Part shown: positions 56,301-59,300 of the stretch, one piece after another
How positions within the stretch are numbered: position 1 is the first letter of the stretch
Layout of the letters: every line of letters starts with the position of its first letter
Assembly (NCBI GenBank): GCA_018105865.1
Contig: CM030832.1
Coordinates: 24,543,908 to 24,607,907, forward strand
Direction of reading: 5' to 3'
DNA length: 64,000 nt
From: Metaphire vulgaris
Taxonomy: Eukaryota > Annelida > Clitellata > Crassiclitellata > Megascolecidae
The notes under the pieces: model-generated
Database searches by the model: none
Seen by the model: only the letters and a program-made list of their open reading frames with translations
Told to the model about the DNA's origin: nothing
Translations under genes and position numbers: made by a program

Positions 56301-59300
56301 GGCTTCATCGCTCAGAGCTGTTTGGCTCCGGGATTTTCTACTCTGATGGCAAATCTATTCGCAATGAGATCCTCCTACAAAACCGTAAGACATCTTTAGT
56401 CACTGTTCCCGGCCAGTGGCGTAGCATGCACTTTGGCAACCTATGGCTGATGGCTAATCCGCTGCCCCAAATTCATTCATATCAGATGCAGATCTAGGGT
56501 CTTTGGTGCCAGAGGCATAGCTTGCACTCGTGTCTCCCATGTCGCTGTTTGCAAAATTTTTAAATTTTGAATTTGCTGCCCCTTCTAAAGTTTGACGAAG
56601 TTTGCTGCCTTCATGAAAAATTACCTGACATGCGAGAGAAAAAGGCCATCGCTTCTAAAATTTGCCACCCATTTCAAATGTGCCGCCCCTTTTAAAGTTT
56701 GCTGCCTTCACTCAATATGCAATGTTGACAAACCAAAAAAAGTCGTCCTTCCAAAATTTGTTGCCCCAGTTGTGTGCCGCCCATGGCTAAAGCCAAACTA
56801 GCCATTGGCACACTATGCCTCTGTTCCCGGCATTTCAAATGATTTTTTGTTTGAATAGATTTGAATTTGAGCTTCTATATCGCCGCTCATTATGATCCAG
56901 GGATGGGACTAAGACAGTAAGTGACAAGACCAAGACCAAGAGTCCAAGACATTAAGTCTCAAAACAAAGACCAAGACAATAATAATTTTAAGCATCAAGG
57001 CAGCAGACGAAGCAGCTTTGCAGTCATTGAAGTCCAGTCAGCAATGAGCATTGCATTTTAAAAGCATCAGTGTTTGATAATAATAATAATAATAATAATA
57101 ATAATAATAATAATAATAATAATAATAATAATAATAATAATAATAATAATAATAATAATAATGTGATTTTAAGTGGTGTAGGAGGCTAAGCAAGCCTGTG
57201 TGAAAACCACTGAAGCAACTCTCCGCTTTCAATAACCTATTAGTTCATCTGACATCTTTGCTCTGTTACTTCTGTTGCTATTAGCATTTCTGTTGTTAAT
57301 TTTGTCTTGTCCTAGACTTCCTAGACTTTGTTTTTCTTCATTTTGTTTAGCGCTACAGTTATTTCTTCTTTAATTATTGTAAGCCCCTCTTTATCCACCA
57401 TTATAGGTTCAACTCCTATATTGGCATAGTTCAGTATTAGTTCCTCCATAAACTCTTCCCATCTTTTTATACCTCTTTATCTCCCATCTCTGATTTTTCT
57501 TATTGTACTACTTGTGTTTGTTTGTTCAATTTTTCTGATAATTTTTTTTATCTTTTTGTATATATATTCTTCTTATTCCTCTGTGTTTCAATTTCTTTGC
57601 ATTGTTTGTTTAACAATTCTTTTTTTGCTTTCCCACATTCATTATTGAGTTGTCTGTACTTTATTTCATCCTTGTTCTTAGTTTGTCTTCTTATTTTTGT
57701 CATTTATTGATTTTAGTCGTCCAACTTGCCGCAGTGGCAGAACGATTACTGTAGAGGCGCTGGATTGGAGATGTACACTGAGCTTCTGTCTCCTACATTT
57801 GTTGGCATGACTTTTACGGAAGCCGCAAAGTTTGTGCGCTCTGCCCGAAAACCGTCTTGTTGTGTTTCATTCATTGTATGCCTAGTTGTGCATTTCTCTG
57901 TCCTGTTGTATGTCTTGTGTTTTCATTTTTATTTTCTTAAGTCTTGTTTTTGAAATTCAATTAATTTATTGTTCATTTACGGTTACTACTTGGCTACAGA
58001 ATGCATTCAAAGTTGCGCATGTTCGATAAAGAATCTTGCTCTCGTGCCAATAAATTTACTCTAGTGGCGCCATCTGTATAGTCAATTATGCTGCTGCAGT
58101 CATAAGCAGTTTCTTCTTTTCACTATTTTGTTCTAATTTTTCTTGTATTTGACTTTACAATCTTCCAGTTCTTGCACACATTTTTCTGAAACAGTGATCA
58201 TGTGACCATCTGATCAAATATCCAGTGCATCTTGTTGCTCAGATTGTGTTTCGAGCGACTGAATTTGCTGTTGATTGCAATTGGGACAAAGCGTGAAGAT
58301 GGAACGGTCGCAAGCATCGCCATCAATCCCGGAGCATTCGTCAAAGTTGAACCAATGACACAAGGATTTTTTATAGCTCAGTCAGCGGACGAGGTCAAAA
58401 GGTCAGCAAGATGTGTCACAGATTATAATAATGGCGTTTAGTAAGCAGGCACAGTTTATTCAGCACGTTGTATCCAATTGCTTTTCTTAGTACAGCAATT
58501 GCATGAGTTGAGAATGTTTTCTTTTTAGTGTGTTCTGTTTCCAGGTGTTTTCCAAGATTTGTTTTTATTGCAGTTTTGTTTTTATTGCAGTTTTGTTTTT
58601 ATTGCAGTTTTGTTTTTATTGCAGTTTTGTTTTTATTGCAGTTTTTTAATTGCAGTCTTGTTTTTAATGCAGTTTTGTTTTTATTGCAGTTTTGTTTTTA
58701 TTGCAGTTTTGTTTTTATTGCAGTTTTGTTTTTATTGCAGTTTTTAATTGCAGTTTTGTTTTTATTGCAGTTTTGTTTTATTGCAGTTTTTTATTGCAGT
58801 TTTGTTTTTATTGCAGTTTTTTATTGCAGTTTTGTTTTTATTGCAGTTTTGTTTTTATTGCAGTTTTGTTTTTATTGCAGTTTTGTTTTTTTATTGCAAT
58901 TTTGTTTTTATTGCAGTTTTGTTTTATTGCAGTTTTTTTATTGCAGTTTTGTTTTTATTGCAGTTTTGTTTTTATTGCAGTTTTGTTTTTTTATTGCAGT
59001 TTTGTTTTTATTGCAGTTTTGTTTTTATTGCAGTTTTGTTTTTATTGCAGTTTTGTTTTTATTGCAGTTTTTTTTTATTGCAGTTTTGTTTTTATTGCAG
59101 TTTTGTTTTTATTGCAGGGCATCTTGCTATTGTAAGCAGTGTCACGGTACTTTCATCGGTATGGTAATGATCAAGCAATGTCAGTGCAAGTCAGGTGAGT
59201 ATGTTAGTGAATAACTGTGTTTCATGCTTTGTTTTGTCTCATTCTCTCACAAGATGCTTTTGTCTCATCCATCCTGTCCTGATCAGAGGGACCGTTGTCT

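Follow-up and report, generated by a model that had tools for sequence, protein, structure and literature searches.

A minisatellite of tandem acceptor-like units ends flush with an exon of a Slo1-like gene in Metaphire vulgaris

On the usual view, the branch point is fixed first and the first suitable AG after it becomes the acceptor. How, then, is an exon defined when the intron before it ends in a long row of AGs? The question is raised by a Slo1-like gene of Metaphire vulgaris, part of which lies in the window, the stretch of 64,000 nucleotides of DNA analysed here, and in which the intron before exon 14 closes with tandem copies of a short acceptor-like unit (Table 1). The reading we favour, and consider probable, is that a native acceptor was amplified in place, that the last pair of units is normally used and that the remainder is tolerated. 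It is built on the anatomy of the array, homology, a series of 1, 4 and 34 units in related genes and the reading frames, all of which are observed.

Membership of Slo1 (BK channel alpha) follows from homology across the pore, RCK1 and RCK2, with PDB BK channel matches at E-values of 1e-18 and 3.5e-30; Pfam families PF03493 and PF22614 score above cut-off and the motif TVGYGD occurs in the gene. Exon 13 was checked by alignment to the paralogues on C5 and C41, and the joined exons 13 and 14 align to BK channel structures, with no gap in the three displayed alignments (9dkf and two similar ones). Exon numbers are those of a preliminary description of this DNA, so the numbering is not independent, and no S1 exon was found in the window copy. 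The CxxCH of exon 14 is presumably a haem motif, and in S4 (45896-46054) a histidine replaces one arginine when compared with the FTRALRLVTI of the C41 copy. Alignment of exon pieces between the window and C5 genes, with queries drawn from the open pieces of the window itself and without an S1 exon, gave zero stops in 819 codons, with a dS of 0.14 and a dN/dS of 0.44. The window gene therefore looks live as judged from its sequence, and a dead gene was ruled out by the stop-free pieces of both copies. Elsewhere in the window, open frames at 13613-16536 (-) and at 2000-2311, 12294-12608 and 21511-21882 (-) resemble, by eye, a non-LTR reverse-transcriptase element and C-type-lectin-like exons.

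TRF delimits the array to the interval given in Table 1, with a period of 17, 33.9 copies and a score of 902, and splitting it into units yields 34, of which 22 are exact copies of TTTTGTTTTTATTGCAG. Both results confirm the preliminary description in placing a 17-bp array of about 34 units flush with a Slo exon. Units are 17 nt long in 23 cases and 13–19 nt in the remainder, the AGs are spaced 13–19 nt apart with one gap of 36 nt, and about five or six point differences, counted by eye, are spread over the 560 nt, the variant units following one another in irregular order. The proposal that every unit has the make-up of a 3' splice site holds for 33 of the 34 and fails for one, which ends in AA. 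Intron 13 comprises 716 bases (58402-59117), of which the array occupies the final 560, and the final G of the array is the final base of the intron, the junction being placed by homology (KR/A, phase 2).

With up to three mismatches allowed, the consensus matches the window 30 times, 29 of them inside the array, compared with a mean of 0.93 in shuffled sequences, which rules out chance T-richness. The repeat unit includes the splice site and abuts the exon, as is characteristic of splice-site minisatellites, and the array lies at the acceptor and not on the donor side as in that class. No other repeat with a period of at least 10 and at least three copies is present in the span of the window gene; the chance placement of an unrelated minisatellite next to the exon was rejected on this ground, and because the paralogue series described below also accounts for the origin of the array.

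Table 1 Features of the Slo1-like gene and its intron 13 array in the window
Feature	Position	Strand	Remarks
Slo1-like gene, part found in window	40977..62756	+	more exons beyond the window on C1 (L015)
Slo exon 13	58243..58401	+	ends DEVK-R; donor AAAAG/gtcagc; tblastn and PDB BK channel matches
Unique 5' part of intron 13	58402..58557	+	single yUnAy
Open stretch in exon-14 frame across array	58507..59214	+	follows from repeat composition; not coding evidence
Array of 34 tandem acceptor units	58558..59117	+	consensus TTTTGTTTTTATTGCAG; 33/34 end in AG
Variant unit with TAA	58642..58655	+	
Variant unit with TAA	58656..58672	+	
Variant unit with TAA	58741..58753	+	
Sole AG-less unit	58881..58899	+	ends GCAA
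Predicted working 3' splice site (last two units)	59084..59117	+	from geometry; use inferred
Slo exon 14, 77 nt	59118..59194	+	CxxCH; donor gtgagt

The 728-Mb assembly contains the exact 17-mer 31 times, with 22 copies in this array, four in an array on C5 and five standing singly; with 26 of the 31 hits in two Slo arrays, a dispersed satellite was ruled out. The C5 match is a second Slo gene, in which the corresponding exon and intron are present with four perfect tandem units. Of the single copies, that on C41 forms the acceptor for the corresponding exon of a third Slo gene, and another, on C31, lies directly 5' of an apparent first coding exon that is glutaredoxin-like by a Pfam score below cut-off and a PDB match with an E-value of 2.6e-5; near the other three single copies no coding exon was recognised by eye. 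Since single copies sit at the C41 acceptor and at the glutaredoxin-like exon, the cassette seems able to act singly as an ordinary acceptor. A different tandem-acceptor pattern (TTTCAG) was matched 28 times in the assembly, with overlaps among several of the matches, and the control 0 times. None of the 28 coincides with the arrays of the window, C5 or C41; they resemble other repeats containing AG, and further exon-flush arrays may exist elsewhere in the genome.

A search of the assembly with exon 13 returned 15 matches (G000, loci L028-L042), 13 with an intron at the matching codon and two (L041 and L042) with exons 13 and 14 continuous; the genome carries at least 13 Slo1-like copies in which these exons are split by an intron. 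At the intron end the window copy has 34 units (22 exact), the C5 copy four exact units and the C41 copy one, and the remaining 10 of the 13 introns have ordinary acceptors with 0 exact units, so that more than one unit is found in only two of the 13. The last two AGs are separated by 17 nt in both the window and the C5 copy, compared with 21–116 nt in the other 11 introns. CxxCH is kept by 11 of the 13 copies in the tree described below, the corresponding residues being CKSCQ in the C2 copy (L035) and CKNCR in the C3 copy (L038); L041 and L042 read CPQHH and CHQHH. From the first exon to the pore exon of the C5 copy (G000:C5:923253-934100) no S2–S4 exon match was obtained at E ≤0.01, although this stretch was covered in full, and its channel may be without most of the voltage sensor.

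A midpoint-rooted tree of the 13 copies, based on 78 residues and with the C2 and C3 rows extending a few residues beyond their shorter exon 14, makes the window and C5 copies sisters (97/99) and places them in one group with C41 and a second copy on C1 (80/85). The order of the latter two is left unsettled by the tree, and C41 could be more distant than the second C1 copy, in which no exact unit occurs. Divergence from C41 is similar for the window and C5 genes (dS of 0.68 and 0.67, respectively, with a dN/dS of 0.24 for each). That the acceptor itself was amplified, as the preliminary description had suggested, is strongly supported by the 1, 4 and 34 units found at the matching intron of these relatives, and amplification would have taken place at the native site. 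The simplest history would lead from one unit to a few and then to 34 in the window line, a direction of growth and not loss that is read from this single 78-residue tree, with its unsettled order of C41 and the second C1 copy. The ancestral acceptor would have been a single 17-nt cassette, grown by slippage or unequal exchange after the split from the C41 relative and reaching 34 units in the window copy. Its 3' edge would stay fixed at the exon because the exon boundary is under selection, and growth would not be purged because each duplication keeps a whole acceptor adjoining the exon. Between the window and C5 genes, nine alignment blocks 180 nt or longer, one of which takes in the array end, show 81–93% identity (eight of them 87.5–92.9%). 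Set against this identity, the roughly five or six differences within the array make its last growth, or a homogenisation, look younger than the gene duplication.

Which AG would be used can be considered from the geometry of the units. Each has a pyrimidine tract, and a match to yUnAy (UUUAU or similar) is present in 34 of 34, its A lying 5–6 nt from the unit’s own AG in 33 of 33 and 19–25 nt from the next AG in 32 of 33, the exception being a distance of 42 nt where the AA unit intervenes. Excerpts from work on distant branch points state that AGs less than about 12–15 nt from the branch point can be bypassed and that otherwise the first downstream AG is used (PMC1431707). The A of a unit k would thus be too near its own AG, but in nearly every case it may act as branch point for the AG that ends unit k+1, and neighbouring units can, by sequence, form a complete 3' splice site. 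The last pair appears complete under these same excerpted rules because the penultimate A, a candidate branch A at 59094, is suitably spaced at 23 nt from the final G of the intron (final AG 59116-59117); only a branch point in this penultimate unit would leave no other AG, beyond about 12–15 nt, ahead of the one used. The last two units would then act as a self-contained 3' splice site with the upstream array mostly tolerated, and the geometry fits the suggestion, made in the preliminary description, that the array is a buffer guaranteeing splicing.

The only yUnAy in the unique part of the window intron has its A at 58458, which is 115 nt from the first AG of the array; the 100 nt upstream of that AG contain none. 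A branch point may nevertheless lie upstream of the array, since four of the 13 introns (C41, C7, C2 and C8) are without a yUnAy 15–60 nt before the last AG; yUnAy is a weak match and a poor guide, UUUAU being common in T-rich sequence. A strict 5'-first choice of branch point would favour an upstream AG, contrary to use of the last pair. The C5 intron has a CTCAT whose A lies 18 nt before the first AG, use of which would add 51 nt in frame.

The consequences of upstream use were read off from a script that spliced exon 13 to all 33 AGs in turn: one yields the normal product, nine yield open in-frame inserts (84, 171, 201, 237, 288, 318, 411, 462 and 510 nt), and with the other 23 the frame runs into a premature stop, either within the array or within exon 14. 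The statement that no forward frame has a stop does not stand, as TAA occurs in three of the 34 units and, of the three forward frames, two are closed inside the array, leaving open only the frame of exon 14. Nor is every third unit in frame, as had been supposed; only nine of the 32 upstream AGs keep the frame open, because unit lengths vary between 13 and 19 nt. The very hydrophobic nature predicted for the inserts is borne out, with best 19-residue Kyte-Doolittle means of 3.0–3.1, and such an insert between cytosolic RCK domains is unlikely to be welcome. Together, 23 premature stops out of 32 and nine hydrophobic inserts are evidence against routine use of upstream AGs. A coding role for the array was ruled out: its 235-residue read-through has no Pfam match, and the open frame follows from the repeat. 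Any leaky use of AGs further upstream would in most cases end in a premature stop and decay. In the favoured reading the mechanism and direction of growth, the branch point and AG used, the tolerance and the decay are what we infer.

The same outcomes could be put to regulatory use if upstream AGs were chosen frequently, array length setting the share of productive Slo mRNA as a dosage dial tunable by slippage. We regard this as unlikely, though it can draw on the 23 of 32 upstream AGs that lead to premature stops and the nine that lead to hydrophobic inserts, on a donor-side precedent in which one 25-bp unit of the ABCA7 VNTR is retained with a frameshift (PMC5954066, in part), and on the scanning rule in the excerpted text of PMC1431707, which prefers the first AG past about 12–15 nt from the branch point. 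Against it, the single-unit retention isoform of ABCA7 is, in the available portion of the same report, unchanged by array length (PMC5954066), and in Slo only two of the 13 paralogues have more than one unit, with no sign of long conservation. A variant in which the units chain branch points and one of the 33 AGs is picked probabilistically, with array length, which mutates fast, again setting the productive share, seems to us decidedly doubtful; were it true, rare channels would carry a hydrophobic insert between RCK1 and RCK2. A further alternative is that competing U2AF-binding sites weaken recognition of exon 14, whose skipping would shift the frame (77 nt) and partly silence the window copy. 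Human NF1 provides a parallel, in that interruption of the AG-free zone often causes the exon to be skipped or the new AG to be used, and of the 49 AG-adding mutations discussed almost half led to skipping or to another cryptic site, according to part of that study (PMC7317903); passages on ABCA7 also report that skipping of exon 19 increases with VNTR length (PMC5954066). The dN/dS of the window–C5 comparison, higher than that of either gene to C41, may point to relaxed constraint. The absence of stops in the aligned exon pieces and the consensus-like exon 14 donor nevertheless make exon skipping improbable.

Roles outside acceptor choice fare worse. The array might be a binding platform, its U-rich motifs being what we take to be ELAV/CELF/PTB-type sites, or a brake that ends antisense transcription, and its minus strand indeed carries 31 AATAAA polyadenylation-like signals in the 34 units, out of 100 on that strand of the window. 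Both the U-rich motifs and AATAAA arise automatically from the unit, and such functions are needed to explain neither the abutment of the exon in acceptor phase nor the single-unit relative, so we give this the least credence. An assembly error, with the copy number wrong or the array artificial, has to be considered for tandem repeats, which are error-prone, in a single assembly, and is very improbable here given that the array lies inside a 50-Mb contig, that its variant units are irregularly ordered and that a second array, of four units, occupies the matching intron of the C5 copy. In-place amplification of the acceptor, with normal use of the last pair, thus remains our preferred reading.

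Several known systems share elements of this arrangement. The VNTR in intron 18 of human ABCA7, a 25-bp unit starting with the GT of the exon 18 donor, is likewise an exon-flush tandem repeat with the splice site inside the unit, and an isoform extended by one unit, which shifts the frame, has been observed; it differs in lying on the donor side, where its length affects skipping of the next exon (from the part of PMC5954066 available). The IFI6/6-16 minisatellite (Turri 1995) offers tandem splice sites that are used alternatively, as may be likened to the Slo array, although these are multiple donor sites and the Slo array is on the acceptor side (PMC4526556, excerpted). At NAGNAG and other close alternative acceptors several AGs compete for one exon, as here, but NAGNAG involves two AGs three nt apart, in contrast to whole acceptor cassettes each with a branch-point match (PMC3250501 and PMC1449888, both in part). 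Exons with distant branch points share the branch-point and first-AG rules, and have, in the excerpts of PMC1431707, a long AG-free stretch, the opposite of an AG each 13–19 nt. No acceptor-side array was found among the matches listed, in a literature searched with few subscription papers, which is weak evidence of absence; to that extent splice-site minisatellites are known from the donor side (ABCA7 and IFI6) and the acceptor side is what is new here.

For the Slo genes of this genome, the window and C5 sisters make opposite predictions of AG choice, as C5 could use its first AG. An intron in which AGs recur roughly every 17 nt along 560 nt, with relatives that have four units, one unit or an ordinary acceptor, amounts to a natural titration of the AG rule, and the array illustrates how a splice site may multiply while the exon boundary stays put.
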